Below are positions 10,010-38,217 of a stretch of 55,593 nt of DNA, in pieces (positions within the stretch are counted from its first letter, which is position 1; each line of letters starts with the position of its first letter). The translations under genes were made by a program, and so were the position numbers. The notes below the pieces were generated by a model. That model did not search any database and was not told the origin of the DNA. It worked only from the letters and a program-made list of their open reading frames with translations. Source of the stretch: Chromatiales bacterium (GTDB lineage Bacteria > Pseudomonadota > Gammaproteobacteria > Chromatiales > Chromatiaceae); NCBI GenBank assembly GCA_030145485.1, contig JAQYVP010000259.1:1-55593 (forward strand), given 5' to 3'.

Positions 10010-10053
10010 GCAAATATTTCCTGATTGATAAAGTTTCAGAACCGGCAACAAAG

Positions 10054-16608: not shown

Positions 16609-16613
16609 GGCAT

Positions 16614-16815
16614 CAAGTCTCAGACTGACGAGACATGAAAGAGATTATTTTCTCTCGCCAAGGCGCAAAGACCGCAAAGTTTTTTCCTGGCGGGCTTGGC
16701 CTACATGGATGTAGGTTAGGGGCGTTAGCAGGACGCGGAAGCTTTGCGTCTTTGCGAGAGTTATTATTAAGATTTGACTCATTTGAAACGATGTTGGCCA
16801 CTCAAGAATTACTAA
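16614..16815 (+). repeat. Family A repeat, copy A2
   Basis: The unit runs from AAGTCTCAGACTGACGAGAC to CACTCAAGAATTACTA. The 109-bp core 16652-16760 is bounded by CTCTCGC and GCGAGAG and holds the CCTACATGGATGTAGG palindrome near its right side. It lies between two permease genes and supplies the last residues and stop of the dppB-like gene. Confidence 0.85.
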
Positions 16816-26186: not shown

Positions 26187-26235
26187 GAAGTAAGAGTTCC
26201 ACATAAGGTCTCAATAATTGCGCTTAGATTCGAGT

Positions 26236-26431
26236 TTCTAGTGAGATCAGGTCTCAGACTGACAAGGCATGAAAAAAACATTTTCTCTCGCAAAGCTTCC
26301 GCGTCCTGCTCACGCCCCTCACCTACGGTCCTTGTAGGCGAAGACGCCAAGACCGCCAAGAAAAACCTTTGGGTCCTTTGCGTTCTTAGCGAGAGATTCT
26401 TTTAAAACTTGACTCATTTGCAAGCATTTTA
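26236..26431 (+). repeat. Family A repeat, copy A3 (core inverted, right end truncated)
   Basis: It begins CTAGTGAGATCAGGTCTCAG and ends ACTCATTTGCAAGCATTTTA, lacking the terminal TCTCAAGGATTACTA. The core 26285-26395 reads CTCTCGCAAAGCTTCCGCGT and so on, the same inverted orientation as A1. It lies upstream of ogt. Confidence 0.82.
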
Positions 26432-26460
26432 GTGAATTGATGAATTCTGTGAGTTTTGAA

Positions 26461-26534
26461 CCACAGATGAACACGGATGCACACAGATACTGCTCCATCT
26501 CTTAATCTGTGTTTATCTGTGTTCATCTGTGGTT
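26461..26534 (+). repeat. Family D repeat
   Basis: CCACAGATGAACACGGATGC and TGTTTATCTGTGTTCATCTG, ending TGG, form complementary arms, giving a long hairpin. It sits 32 bp past the stop of the Kef-type gene and may end its transcript. Confidence 0.7.
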
Positions 26535-26566
26535 AACCCTTGCCGTTTTTCTTACTGCAATCGGCA

Positions 26567-30294: not shown

Positions 30295-31443
30295 TCATGC
30301 TTGAATCAGATTCAACACAGTATCTGCAGCTTTTTGTGCAGCATTCTGCTGTAATTTCCTGTGTATCTGCATGTATCGACTCTTGATTTTATCAATCTGC
30401 TGTTGATCTGTCATGAGGCGCAGCAGCGCCGGAGTAATCTTCTCTGCCGTACACTGGTGTTGAATAAACTCAGGAGCCAGAGCTTCTCCGGCCAGCAAAT
30501 TCGCCATGGCAATGTAGTCCACCTTGATGCGCCGAAACAGCGTCAGCAGGCGATAGGTGATCGCATTGACACGATAACCGACCACCATCGGCTTCTTATA
30601 CAGCAGCGTCTGCAGAGTTGCAGTGCCTGACGCCGTCAGCACTGCATCCGCTGCTTCGAGCACCAGGTCAGCCTGTTTATCAATGAGAATGCAGTCGAGG
30701 GCAGGAACCAGCTCCTGTCGCTGCTGTTCGAACAATTCATGAATGTGTCCGTTCACCATCGGTGCGACAATTTTCAAATGCGGTATCTGCTGTGCAAGCG
30801 AGGCTGCTGCTTCAAGGAACGGCTTTGAGAGGCGTTTGATTTCACCGACGCGGCTGCCAGGAAGCAGCGCCAGCAGCGGAGCATCCAGGGGAAGCCCGAG
30901 CACCGCTCTAGCACTGGCAGGATCAGGATTCAGCGGTACCTGGTCAGCGAGTGGATGCCCCACATAGATACTCGGCACCTGGTGGTCTAGCAGAAACTCC
31001 TGCTCAAAGGGGAAGATGCTGAGCACCAAATCCAACGCCTCGCGTAGAATCTTCACCCTCCCCTGCTTCCACGCCCATACAGTTGGCGCAACGTACTGAA
31101 CAGTGGGGATTCCAGCCGCCTTCATCTTTTTTGCCAGGCCGAGGTTGAAATCCGGGGCATCGACGCCAATAAAGAGATCAGGAGGATTGTCGATGAAATG
31201 CTGTGCAAGCTGACGGCGAATGAGCAGCAGCTCCGGCAGGTGCGGCAACACCTCGATCAGCCCCATGACAGTGAGTTTTTCCATCGGATAGAGGCTTTGC
31301 ATCCCTGCCGCTATCATTTCCGGGCCACCGATCCCGCTGTAGGAGACATGGGGAATCCGTGCATTGATTGCCTGCATCAGGGCGGCGCCCAGATGATCCC
31401 CGGAAGGCTCTGCAACGACCAGCGCGATGCGTAATCCGGACAT
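30295..31443 (-). CDS. lpxB: Lipid-A-disaccharide synthase LpxB
   Basis: LpxB joins UDP-2,3-diacylglucosamine and lipid X, the glycosyl transfer of lipid A synthesis. The 382-residue GT-B-type protein begins MSGLRIALVVAEPSGDHLGA. It carries YSGIGGPEMIAAGMQSLYPM, VGHPLADQVP, ALLPGSRVGEIKRL, and the C-terminal TASGTATLQTLLYKKPMVVG. The start at 31443 fits family N-termini. An upstream in-frame ATG at 31494 would overlap lpxA by 11 nt. It is last in the fabZ-lpxA-lpxB unit. The usual rnhB/dnaE neighbours are missing, and lexA converges from the other side. Confidence 0.95.
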   Translation of the reverse strand: MSGLRIALVVAEPSGDHLGAALMQAINARIPHVSYSGIGGPEMIAAGMQSLYPMEKLTVMGLIEVLPHLPELLLIRRQLAQHFIDNPPDLFIGVDAPDFNLGLAKKMKAAGIPTVQYVAPTVWAWKQGRVKILREALDLVLSIFPFEQEFLLDHQVPSIYVGHPLADQVPLNPDPASARAVLGLPLDAPLLALLPGSRVGEIKRLSKPFLEAAASLAQQIPHLKIVAPMVNGHIHELFEQQRQELVPALDCILIDKQADLVLEAADAVLTASGTATLQTLLYKKPMVVGYRVNAITYRLLTLFRRIKVDYIAMANLLAGEALAPEFIQHQCTAEKITPALLRLMTDQQQIDKIKSRYMQIHRKLQQNAAQKAADTVLNLIQA

Positions 31444-31483
31444 GCCGGGCGCCTCTGAATGAAGCGATTCGTTCAGAACTTCC

Positions 31484-32248
31484 TCAACGCACAATACTGC
31501 GACGGCTGTTTTGCAGAAAGTCGACCATCACGGCAAGTTGCGGGGAGTTGAGTTCAGTAATCTGTTCGATAGCTTCGTCGAGCTTGAGTCCGCTATTGTA
31601 GAGCAATATATAGGCATCCTTGATGTGGCGTACAGTTTCAGCATCAAAACCTTTGCGCTTCAGTCCTTCACTGTTGACCCCCCTGGGGGTGGCAGGTGAC
31701 CCGGAAACCAGCAGGTAGGGGGGGACATCACGGTTGATCGCGGTTCCCATGGCGCTAAAGCTGTGTGCGCCAATCGAACAAAACTGGTGCACCAGCGTAA
31801 AGCCGCTAAGAATGGCATAATCACCGATATCAACATGCCCGGCTAACGAGGAGCCATTTGACATGATGATATGGTCCTTGAGCATGCAGTCATGCGCCAC
31901 ATGGGTATAGGCCATGAGTAAATTGTCATTGCCGATACTTGTTATCCCCTGGTCCTGCGCCGTGCCTCGATGGAGGGTTGCATATTCCCGGATGATATTA
32001 CGGTCACCGATTCTCAGCAGCGTATCCTCCCCCGAATATTTCATATCCTGGGGAATCTCTCCGATCGAGGAGAACTGGAAAATTCTGTTGTCTTCACCGA
32101 TAGCTGTGTTTCCCTGAATGACGACATGAGAAGCGACGCTTGTTCCCCTGCCAATTTTCACACCTGCGCCTATAACGCTGAAAGGACCAATACTGACCCC
32201 ATCAGCAATGTCACAATCTGCATCAATAATCGCAGAGGGATGAATCAT
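31484..32248 (-). CDS. lpxA: UDP-N-acetylglucosamine acyltransferase LpxA
   Basis: LpxA catalyses the first step of lipid A synthesis. The 254-residue left-handed beta-helix protein has hexapeptide repeats from [20 protein letters not shown] through INRDVPPYLLVSGSP, and a C-terminal helical part. Catalytic His lies in LMAYTHVAHDCMLKDHII. The start at 32248 overlaps the fabZ stop by one base (TGATG), and an ATG at 32269 would lie inside fabZ. Confidence 0.97.
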   Translation of the reverse strand: MIHPSAIIDADCDIADGVSIGPFSVIGAGVKIGRGTSVASHVVIQGNTAIGEDNRIFQFSSIGEIPQDMKYSGEDTLLRIGDRNIIREYATLHRGTAQDQGITSIGNDNLLMAYTHVAHDCMLKDHIIMSNGSSLAGHVDIGDYAILSGFTLVHQFCSIGAHSFSAMGTAINRDVPPYLLVSGSPATPRGVNSEGLKRKGFDAETVRHIKDAYILLYNSGLKLDEAIEQITELNSPQLAVMVDFLQNSRRSIVR

Positions 32249-32697
32249 CAGGTCTTCCGAGGTGTGCACATGATTTGTGCCGAGGCCGCCAGATTTCCGT
32301 CGACACTGGCCCTGGTATTGAACACCCAGATCGAGCTCCTTTGCTTGACAAAATCGACTTCCAGTCTCAACTGGTCACCGGGCTCAACAACCTGCTTGAA
32401 ACGCACCTTGTCGATACCGACAAAATAGTAAATCAGGCTTTTCCTGAGCTCCTCAGGCTGCGCCATCATGGCCAGCAAACCGGTACACTGAGCCAGAGCC
32501 TCGACGATCAACACCCCGGGCATCACCGGCTTCACCGGAAAGTGGCCTGCAAAAAAATGCTCATTGATGCTGACATTTTTAATACCAACCAGTCGCTGAG
32601 TCTCTTCGATCTCAATGACCCTGTCTACCAGCAAAAAGGGATAGCGATGTGGCAGGTACTCCATGATCTGCCGAACATCCATAACTGTTTCACTCAT
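32248..32697 (-). CDS. fabZ: 3-hydroxyacyl-ACP dehydratase FabZ
   Basis: FabZ dehydrates 3-hydroxyacyl-ACP in fatty acid synthesis and competes with LpxA/LpxD for hydroxymyristoyl-ACP. The hot-dog fold protein of 149 residues has [14 protein letters not shown] and the catalytic His/Glu segment [20 protein letters not shown], then AQ at the helix. ATG at 32697 has AGGAG 7 nt upstream. In the canonical order lpxD lies immediately upstream, between skp and fabZ. Here that position is a 440-bp repeat-filled gap. Confidence 0.97.
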
Positions 32698-32729
32698 CGA
32701 CAACTCCTGCTGAATAGTCTCAAATAAAT

Positions 32730-33091
32730 AGCAATGCTCAATGCACCAATCAAGTGTCTATATCTTAAAAGATTTTTACCACGAAGCACACGAAGATCAG
32801 GAAGAATCAACTGGTTACAAAATTGCCTTGTCATTTCTCAATAACTCCGTACAGAAAAGCAGGGTTGGGACTTGCCTTTCAGGGCTTCCGCCGAATAAAT
32901 GCTCCTGCGTTTTCGGCACTTCCGCCATCCATGGCGGTCGAAAACAGGGATGCTTTATCAGAGCTTACAGGGATGTATTCACGCGTCCCTAAAAGGCTGG
33001 TCATGACCCTGCGAAAACCAACTTATGTACGGGATTATTAAGAAGTTACAATACCTTCGTGGTGAGTATCTCTCTACATTGAGAATTGCTG
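32730..33091 (+). repeat. Family R repeat, copy R5, split by MITE M2
   Basis: The R ends AGCAATGCTCAATGCACC and TACATTGAGAATTGCTG are in place, but the centre is interrupted at 32830-33049. The left half ends near AACTGGTTACAAAATTGCCT and the right half resumes ATACCTTCGTGGTGAGTATC. A D fragment follows at 33111-33145. Confidence 0.82.
32830..33049. mobile_element. MITE M2 with GTAA-type ends, nested in R5
   Basis: The left end is GTCATTTCTCAATAACTCCG. The right end in reverse complement is GTAACTTCTTAATAATCCCG. The flanking octamers ATTGCCTT and AATACCTT agree at 6 of 8. The interior shares TTCCGCCATCCATGGCGGTC with M1. No gene is present. It lies in the skp-fabZ gap where lpxD would be expected. 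Confidence 0.65.
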
Positions 33092-33143
33092 CTTAAAACA
33101 ATGCTTAATTGAATAATCTGTGTATATCTGTGCGTATCTGTGG

Positions 33144-33707
33144 TTACTTTTTTTTATCAGAAGCCATATCCGGCTCCTCTTCTACATAGCGTTCCTTGAG
33201 GCGTTGCAGGATCTGGTCAGAGATATCAACGCGGTCACTGACATAGACGACCCCAGCCTCAAAAACCATATCGATATTCTGCTCCTTGGCAATGGACTCA
33301 ATCACCTCTGCGATCAGCAGACGCAGTCTGTTCATCTCTTCATTTTTTTGTAGCGCGATATCCTCTTCCAACTCGATGCGGGCTGTTTTCAAGCGCCGCG
33401 CCTTGACCAGGATATCCCGTTCCAACTCCGTACGCTTGTTGATATCCAGCGTATCACGCTGGCTTGCCAGCCCTTTTTTTGACTTGTTAAGGCTCTCTTC
33501 ACGCAGATTGAGTTCAGCTTCACGCTTTTCATATCCTCCCTTCAGGACAGCTTCAATTGCCTTGACCTGGGGCGTGAACTTCAGGATTCTGCTGACATTA
33601 ACAAAGGCCAGTTTATGGGGAGCATTGCCGGATTCAGCAGCCACGCAGGGCATCGTAGAGAAGAGCAGTGCTGCAACCAGCAACGCCAGCAGATGGGGAT
33701 GATTCAT
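33144..33707 (-). CDS. skp: Periplasmic chaperone Skp/OmpH
   Basis: Skp holds unfolded outer-membrane proteins in the periplasm. The 187-residue protein has a signal peptide (MNHPHLLALLVAALLFSTMP, cleavage near CVAA-ES) and a long, charged coiled coil (GYEKREAELNLREESLNKSK and on) between short strand segments LAFVNVSRIL and DMVFEAGVVYVSDRVDIS. It fits the OmpH family. The open frame extends upstream to 33854, but that part is an A repeat read through, so 33707 is the start. It lies directly downstream of bamA, the usual order. Confidence 0.93.
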   Translation of the reverse strand: MNHPHLLALLVAALLFSTMPCVAAESGNAPHKLAFVNVSRILKFTPQVKAIEAVLKGGYEKREAELNLREESLNKSKKGLASQRDTLDINKRTELERDILVKARRLKTARIELEEDIALQKNEEMNRLRLLIAEVIESIAKEQNIDMVFEAGVVYVSDRVDISDQILQRLKERYVEEEPDMASDKKK

Positions 33708-33716
33708 ACGGCCGGG

Positions 33717-33878
33717 TAATCCATGAGTGACCAACATCTTTACGAATGAGTCAAATTTAAAGAATAACCCTCGCGAAGACGCTAAGCTCGCCAAGAAAAA
33801 CCCTTTGCGGTCTTTGCGCCTTAGCGAGAGAAAATAATCTTTTTCATGCCTCATCAGTCTGAGATTTGATCTCGCTAG
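33717..33878 (-). repeat. Family A repeat, copy A4 (reverse orientation, short core)
   Basis: Read on the minus strand it runs from CTAGCGAGATCAAATCTCAG to GTTGGTCACTCATGGATTA. The 63-bp core (33768-33830) lacks the CCTACATGGATGTAGG module. The bamA stop codon TAG lies in the first bases of the repeat (CTAGCGAGA), and the skp start lies 10 nt beyond the other end. Confidence 0.82.
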
Positions 33879-36166
33879 AAATTCGAACCAAAGGTAAACT
33901 GAAACTCTTCGGTCTCATCAAAAGGCTGCTCATTAAAGGGCGCCGCATAGCTGACATTCAGCAACCCGAATGGAGATAGCCAGCTCACTGCAAGACCTGC
34001 GGAGTAGCGGAACTTGTCCGAATCAAAATCATCGACATCGAAGGAGACGTTGCCAAAATCGGCAAAGGCGATCAGGCGCACGCTCTCACCCAGATCCATG
34101 AACGGAGGTGGGAACCACAACTCGCCACCGCCAATGACCTTGAAAGTACCGGCGATGGTATTGCCATCGAGGTCGGTTCCTCCACCAATCGAGTAGGATT
34201 TATAACCACGCACCGAACCGGGGCCGCCGGCATAAAACCCCTCATAAAAAGGGAAAAGGTCAGTATCGGAATAAGTGTCGCCCCAGGCGACCTCTCCTTT
34301 CAATGCCAGAGAAAGATGATCGGTGATGCCGAAATACTGTTTATGCTTGTATTTCAGCGTCCAGAATTCAAAATCACTGCCGGGCAGTGCAAGCATTACC
34401 CCGGCGCTGATGAGGGCGCCTTCAGAGGTAAACATCGCCGTATCCCTGGTGTCACGCGACCAGGTGACGCCAAGCTTGTAGGTATTGATCTGCTGGCCAT
34501 CTGTATAGAATTCGGAGATATAGAGCGGCGTCTCGTTCTCATTGAAGTGGAGCTTCAGATACTCGAGATTCAGATAGACCCCGATTCTGTCCCACTCACT
34601 GATCGGGAAGCCGAAATTAAGCCCCAGGATCCCAGTGTCTGTCGCATACCTGGCAACATCAGTATTCAGTCTGGAAAAATCAGTTTGACGGTACATGATC
34701 CTGAAACCCTGGCTGATGCCGTCAATCGTGAAATAAGGATTGCGGTACGCGAGTTCCACGTAGCTATTGACATCACTGGTACTAAAACCAAGGGTCACAT
34801 TCTTGCCGGAACCAAAGAAGTTGTCATCACTCAGCCTGGCCTGGAACGAGACCCCGCTGTCCTGTGAAAAACCAACGCCCAACATCAGCTCGCGAGATTT
34901 TTTCTCCACCACCGTGACATCCACATCAACCTGGTCAGGGGATCCCGGAACTGGCCTGGTGGCAATCTCTACGGTCTCGAAATAGCCCAGGCGCAACAGG
35001 CGCTGCTTCGATTCCCGGACCCTTTCAGCTGAAAACCAGGCTGCTTCCATCTGCCGAAATTCACGTCGCAGCACTCTGTCGCGCGAACGGGTATTACCGT
35101 GGATATTGACGCGCCTGACATAGGCCCGCCTACCGGGTTCGACATAGAGCGTGATCTTGACGCTCTTGTTCTCTTCGTCGATATCAGGAATGGCATTGAC
35201 ACTGGCAAGCGCATAGCCCTTGTCGGAGAGCGCTGCACTGATGGCTTCGGTGCTTTTGACGACCTGCTTGCGGGAGAAAGGCTCGTTGCGCCGCAATTCT
35301 ATCAGCGGAAACAGCTCTTCAGGGTCGACCACTGCCTTGCCGGCCAACTGGATATCTTCAACGGTATAGACATCACCCTCGGTAATATTGATGGTGAGGA
35401 AGACATCCTCTTTCTCGGGACTGATATTCACCTGTGTCGATAGCACATCAAATTTCAGGTAGCCGCGATCCATGTAAAAAGAACGCAGACTTTCAAGATC
35501 CGCTTCCAGTTTCTGGCTGGAGTATTGATTGTTCTTGGTAAAACGTGAAATCCAGTTACCTGTCGACAAAGAGATTTCATCGAGCAGATCATCCTCGTCA
35601 AAAGCCTTGTTGCCGACGATATTGACACGTTTGATTTTTGCCGTTCTTCCCTCGCGTACATTGATATCGACTGCGACACGGTTACGCTCCAGTGGAGAGA
35701 CCGTGGAGGTAATGATGACGCTGTACTTGCCACGGTCAAAGTAGGAGCGTTTCAAATCCTGTTTGATGCTGTCAAGTACCTGCTGGTTGAATACCCTCCC
35801 TTCGGAGAAACCTGCATCACGCAGACCCGTTTTCAGTTGATCAGTATCGATATCCTTGTTGCCGCTAAAAGTAATCGATGCAATCGATGGACGTTCGATT
35901 ACTGAGACCACCATCACAGCGCCATCCTGCTCGAGCGATACATCCTTGAACAGGCCGCTTTTGTAGAGTGCACGTACAATCTCGCCACCGGCAGTGTCGT
36001 CGACCCGGTCGCCAATTTCAAAAGGGATAAAACTGAAAACGGTGCCGACGGGAACCCGCTGCAGACCCTCGACGCGGATATCCCGAATGACAAAGGAGCC
36101 GGCATAAACAAGTGAGGAGAGAACCAGCAGCCCTGCTGCTACTAACGCATATTTTGTTTTTATCAC
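33875..36166 (-). CDS. bamA: Outer membrane protein assembly factor BamA
   Basis: BamA is the central barrel of the machine that folds outer-membrane proteins. The 763-residue precursor has a signal peptide (MIKTKYALVAAGLLVLSSLV, cut near YAG) and five POTRA domains from about 25 to 425 (the first with IRDIRVEGLQRVPVGTVFSF). A 16-strand Bac_surface_Ag barrel runs to the final Phe (FTFGSNF), whose C-terminal aromatic serves as the assembly signal. The loop-6 region has GGPGSVRGYKSYSIGGG with the VRG(F/Y) motif. It lies between rseP and skp. Confidence 0.97.
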   Translation of the reverse strand: MIKTKYALVAAGLLVLSSLVYAGSFVIRDIRVEGLQRVPVGTVFSFIPFEIGDRVDDTAGGEIVRALYKSGLFKDVSLEQDGAVMVVSVIERPSIASITFSGNKDIDTDQLKTGLRDAGFSEGRVFNQQVLDSIKQDLKRSYFDRGKYSVIITSTVSPLERNRVAVDINVREGRTAKIKRVNIVGNKAFDEDDLLDEISLSTGNWISRFTKNNQYSSQKLEADLESLRSFYMDRGYLKFDVLSTQVNISPEKEDVFLTINITEGDVYTVEDIQLAGKAVVDPEELFPLIELRRNEPFSRKQVVKSTEAISAALSDKGYALASVNAIPDIDEENKSVKITLYVEPGRRAYVRRVNIHGNTRSRDRVLRREFRQMEAAWFSAERVRESKQRLLRLGYFETVEIATRPVPGSPDQVDVDVTVVEKKSRELMLGVGFSQDSGVSFQARLSDDNFFGSGKNVTLGFSTSDVNSYVELAYRNPYFTIDGISQGFRIMYRQTDFSRLNTDVARYATDTGILGLNFGFPISEWDRIGVYLNLEYLKLHFNENETPLYISEFYTDGQQINTYKLGVTWSRDTRDTAMFTSEGALISAGVMLALPGSDFEFWTLKYKHKQYFGITDHLSLALKGEVAWGDTYSDTDLFPFYEGFYAGGPGSVRGYKSYSIGGGTDLDGNTIAGTFKVIGGGELWFPPPFMDLGESVRLIAFADFGNVSFDVDDFDSDKFRYSAGLAVSWLSPFGLLNVSYAAPFNEQPFDETEEFQFTFGSNF

Positions 36167-38003: not shown

Positions 38004-38212
38004 GCTAGCGAGACCAGGGCTCAGATTGATAAGATATGAAAGCCTTCTTGATTTCTCGCAAAGACGCAAAGACGCAAAGGCTTTTCCTTGGCGTGCTTGG
38101 CCTACATGGATGTAGGTCAGGGGCGTAAGCAGGGACGCGAAAGCTTTGCGGCTTGGCGAGAGTTATTGTTGAATTTCGGCTCATTTGTAAAGATATTAGT
38201 TAGTCAAGGATT
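38004..38212 (+). repeat. Family A repeat, copy A5
   Basis: It runs from CTAGCGAGACCAGGGCTCAG to TTAGTCAAGGATTGCTT. The core 38053-38162 is in the A2 orientation with CCTACATGGATGTAGG and CAGGGACGCGAAAGCTTTGC. It fills the whole space between ispC and rseP, starting 1 nt from the rseP start codon. Confidence 0.85.
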
Positions 38213-38217
38213 GCTTG

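Follow-up and report, generated by a model that had tools for sequence, protein, structure and literature searches.

The LpxD1/LpxD2 genes of Francisella and Legionella are lpxD genes that lie outside the bamA cluster; on relocation of lpxD itself, our search of the literature found nothing direct. When named genomes were retrieved with LpxD, 79 of the 80 had fabZ directly after lpxD. The genome analysed here likewise carries its lpxD outside the canonical bamA-skp-lpxD-fabZ-lpxA-lpxB cluster; unlike the genes of Francisella and Legionella, it is present as a single copy whose product belongs to the main LpxD clade, not to the clade of second copies. We consider it highly likely that lpxD left this cluster in an ancestor shared by at least five species of the genus, and that the repeats now found between skp and fabZ settled there later.

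Within the window (the whole stretch of DNA that was analysed, 55,593 nucleotides), ORF reading and Pfam profiles gave the minus-strand order uppS-cdsA-dxr-rseP-bamA-skp-(440 bp)-fabZ-lpxA-lpxB (Table 1). The end of skp at 33144 and the start of fabZ at 32703 leave 440 bp between them with no lpxD, and the longest ORF in this gap, on the opposite strand, has 83 aa. Gene order and gap together bear out the earlier note, which had reported that lpxD is absent between skp and fabZ. A promoter/terminator scan of the 440-bp gap found none. The TAA stop codon of skp is supplied by the end of a D-type repeat fragment. At the other end of the gene, a longer skp ORF (to 33854, 236 aa) runs at its N-terminus into the upstream intergenic repeat (window 33708-33893), and Skp homology in congeners starts at about residue 48-65 of this long ORF; translation probably begins at the ATG at 33707 instead.

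Table 1. Features at the skp-fabZ junction and in the adjoining lpx cluster (window positions).
Feature	Position	Strand	Description and evidence
R5	32730..33090		~150 bp without insert; terminal inverted repeats AGCAATNCTCAATGYA; bounds AGCAATTCTCAATGTA and complement; aligned copies
M2	32830..33049		MITE-like element of 220 bp lying within R5; ends GTMAYTTCTYAATAA / complement
D-type repeat fragment	~33117..33146		CCACAGAT...CACAGAT; alignment of five congeneric gaps
skp (ompH-like)	33144..33707	-	Pfam OmpH 81.8 bits; sequence read; likely start ATG at 33707
fabZ	32248..32703	-	Pfam FabA-like 128.7 bits
lpxA	31484..32269	-	TIGR01852 / NF003657 above cut-off
lpxB	30295..31494	-	Pfam LpxB 357 bits
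bamA	33875..36166	-	Pfam POTRA and Omp85

Searching the whole genome with the gap sequence gave 68 matches in dozens of separate places, far above chance (other copies reach E values as low as 1e-104). The matches fall into two recurring pieces, with query 9-109 and 334-371 corresponding to R5 and query ~108-329 corresponding to M2. M2 is absent from intact copies of R5, both from those at window positions 10046, 12781 and 15544 and from those on further contigs, and copies of M2 elsewhere lie within unrelated DNA. Both parts recur separately across the genome. The earlier description of the gap as R5 split by M2, together with a D fragment, holds. M2 is a non-coding element of 220 bp with terminal inverted repeats (GTAACTTCTCAATAA..TTATTGAGAAGTTAC) and about 20 copies, as is characteristic of MITEs, and it further resembles them in the 8-bp duplications found at several copies. 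These target duplications are exact at two copies, TCGATACG in L166 and ATACCTTC in L167, the latter copy (contig C247) itself lying inside another R5; the copy in L159 has 7 of 8 positions matching, and at the window copy the duplication is decayed (6 of 8). The IS66 end rule comprises a GTAA start and an 8-bp target duplication, and by these two features M2 may be likened to IS66-type ends.

Repeats are not peculiar to this junction. If only those with more than one occurrence in the window are considered, they cover 30 bp or more in 17 of its 22 intergenic gaps that are 150 bp or longer, and repeats in the vacated skp-fabZ gap are therefore expected background. Several short palindromic repeat families are spread over most intergenic gaps of the window (e.g. 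16609-16801, 26205-26566 and 38070-38217); they are built on the periodic units ACACGGAAC, ACACAGATA, CTTCGTGTC and CTTTGCGTC and have ACCAC...GTGGT-like ends in common, and some of them may owe their mobility to related enzymes.

The search of the genome located lpxD as a single intact copy on another contig (G000:C259:4212-5282, minus strand), where it is divergent to mgtE and transcribed away from it. The expectation in the earlier note that lpxD must be elsewhere or replaced was thus well founded. The encoded protein is a full-length equivalog of TIGR01853 (350.4 bits; cut-off 242.5), scores 410.7 bits against NF002060 (cut-off 207) and carries the N-terminal domain PF04613 (71.6 bits). 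It therefore lies above both curated cut-offs for LpxD and differs in place, being encoded beside mgtE and not beside skp and fabZ. Residues 15-343 can be aligned with solved LpxD structures, including the hexapeptide region with 6uec, 3pmo and 4ihg. The QI(G/A)HN motif is retained; H251-N252 is invariant in alignment A1 and matches the IAHN of the solved chains, and we take H251, the histidine of this motif, to be the catalytic one. We infer that the gene at this site is functional. LpxC was also found in this genome, and because LpxA, LpxB, LpxC and LpxD are all present, lipid A synthesis would be expected to be normal. The new site of lpxD has a single repeat, which lies only downstream and is of another family than those at skp-fabZ; no repeat family common to the old and new sites was found.

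The junction was compared across the genus, whose genomes are all fragmented drafts (56-93% complete). All four congeners with junction sequence (G001, G002, G003 and G005) have skp-fabZ without lpxD, separated by gaps of ~130 to ~345 bp. In G003 the gap of ~130 bp contains only one palindrome of ~70 bp, of the ACCACGGAA family; in G002 the same palindrome is accompanied by the D fragment and an apparent M2 end, and the gaps of G001 and G005 hold elements with M2-like ends and different cores. The D fragment at the skp stop is common to four of the five species (the genome of the window, G000, and G001, G002 and G005), and the R5/M2 nest is private to the species of the window among the five compared. 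Divergent arrangement of lpxD and mgtE was observed in G000, G001, G003 and G005; in the incomplete assemblies of G002 and G004, lpxD was not found. Being common to several species, skp-fabZ without lpxD and lpxD beside mgtE are therefore both older than the split of these species, and the R5/M2 nest is more recent.

Outside the genus, the canonical arrangement skp-lpxD-fabZ was found in 23 other genomes of the family, namely in the sister genus (G010; BamA-FabZ-LpxA-LpxB tree, support 1.0) and in 22 other genera. It also occurs in G069, and in G065 skp-lpxD reaches the contig end. The lpxD gene of G010 (L010:12161-13198) is in place, yet its LpxD is unusually divergent and forms a long branch. 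Gene order was also compared around mgtE: rpoN-hpf-ptsN-hprK-rapZ-...-mgtE is intact in G004 and G010 (L060 and L061), and in G000, G001, G002 and G005 (L152, L153, L154 and L155) rapZ-ptsH has neither hprK nor mgtE beside it. In this genus, lpxD is thus not alone in having departed from a conserved cluster, and the simplest frame is an overall decay of gene order rather than an excision peculiar to skp-fabZ.

The most likely reading is that the family's own lpxD was relocated. According to this model, lpxD would have been translocated from bamA-skp-lpxD-fabZ-lpxA-lpxB in an ancestor of at least five congeneric species to become the stand-alone gene divergent from mgtE. The vacated skp-fabZ junction would then have turned into an ordinary gap between genes, where short mobile repeats settled and turned over in each species separately; here, M2 would have inserted into an R5. 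We infer that the gene itself moved, as opposed to having been duplicated and lost or replaced. Counting against relocation are the very long stem of the LpxD of the genus and its failure to join the sister genus in the tree. The divergence could instead reflect xenologous replacement, in which the native lpxD was lost and a horizontally acquired lpxD took over at the mgtE locus, a possible but unlikely course. It would account for the 38% identity between the LpxD proteins of the genus and G010, compared with 49-74% for the neighbouring genes, and for the long branch of the genus outside the family in a first tree of 52 sequences. However, after addition of 21 family sequences the LpxD of the genus is placed within the family clade (88/95), sharing an unresolved portion of it with G010, and an AU test does not reject its grouping with G010 (p 0.19), whose LpxD is equally long-branched. 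No closer donor emerged either: the best database matches belong to the same family, at ~50% identity, and among the matches listed for the named genomes (80 loci) none exceeds 49%, so that recent transfer from a named donor was rejected. The branch lengths suggest fast evolution of LpxD across the whole lineage, including G010. Several family members have two lpxD genes, one of them outside the cluster, and the gene at mgtE might be such an ancient second paralogue (as in G016, G026 and G027) that survived while the canonical copy was lost. This origin is highly improbable and is effectively excluded by the tree, in which the second copies of G016, G018, G026, G027 and G044 form their own clade (98/94 for five of the copies; 93/88 for all six taken together), apart from the LpxD of the genus.

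The repeats themselves raise another set of explanations. The assembly is a draft of 260 contigs with dense repeats, which, if collapsed, could have dropped lpxD from the contig; such an artefact is barely credible and was rejected, as the same lpxD-less junction recurs, each time with different repeats, in five separate assemblies, and four assemblies have lpxD in a consistent other context. Recombination between repeat copies might have excised lpxD and perhaps carried it to its new site. Repeat-rich genomes recombine, and the D-type fragment at the skp stop in four of five species points to one repeat present early at the junction, but we regard this route as very doubtful. The R5/M2 nest is confined to one species, and G003 has neither the nest nor lpxD; the repeat at the new site is of a different family and on one side only; and repeats form the background in most gaps of the window. 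Moreover, the lpxD of G010 is packed against skp (~20 bp) and fabZ (~70 bp) with no repeats visible, and therefore no flanking repeats are available there as substrates for excision. It is quite unlikely, too, that spreading short mobile repeats dissolved conserved operons (lpx and rpoN-mgtE), with an early D repeat helping to move lpxD. The earlier note had proposed repeat-mediated excision as the cause, a proposal that is not supported, as congeners without these repeats also lack lpxD at the junction. The comparison that it had suggested, of lpxD in relatives without the repeats, identifies the R5/M2 nest as secondary; this does not fully extend to the D fragment, whose arrival may date back as far as the loss itself. 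Taken together, the repeats at skp-fabZ are best read as secondary or background, and relocation of lpxD as having preceded the R5/M2 nest.

A different condition of the locus was noted in three relatives from two other genera, in which fabZ comes directly after skp (L026 in G009, L039 in G029 and L157 in G089). In G009 and G029, rnhB and dnaE are next after fabZ, and the locus has therefore lost lpxD, lpxA and lpxB as a block. No LpxD or LpxB was found in the assemblies of G009, G029 and G089 (69-84% complete); LpxC is missing in G009, and the LpxC of G029 is without an internal stretch. With assemblies only 69-84% complete, these three may be lipid A-less bacteria.

In the organism studied here, all the lipid A genes that were looked for (lpxA, lpxB, lpxC and lpxD) were found, so that to this extent the pathway is complete and no unusual lipid A is needed. 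We regard the case as an old relocation of a gene, of an ordinary kind, within a genome rich in repeats. It illustrates cleanly how an envelope gene can depart from a cluster that is highly conserved, and shows that repeats occupying the gap left in an operon can be bystanders.
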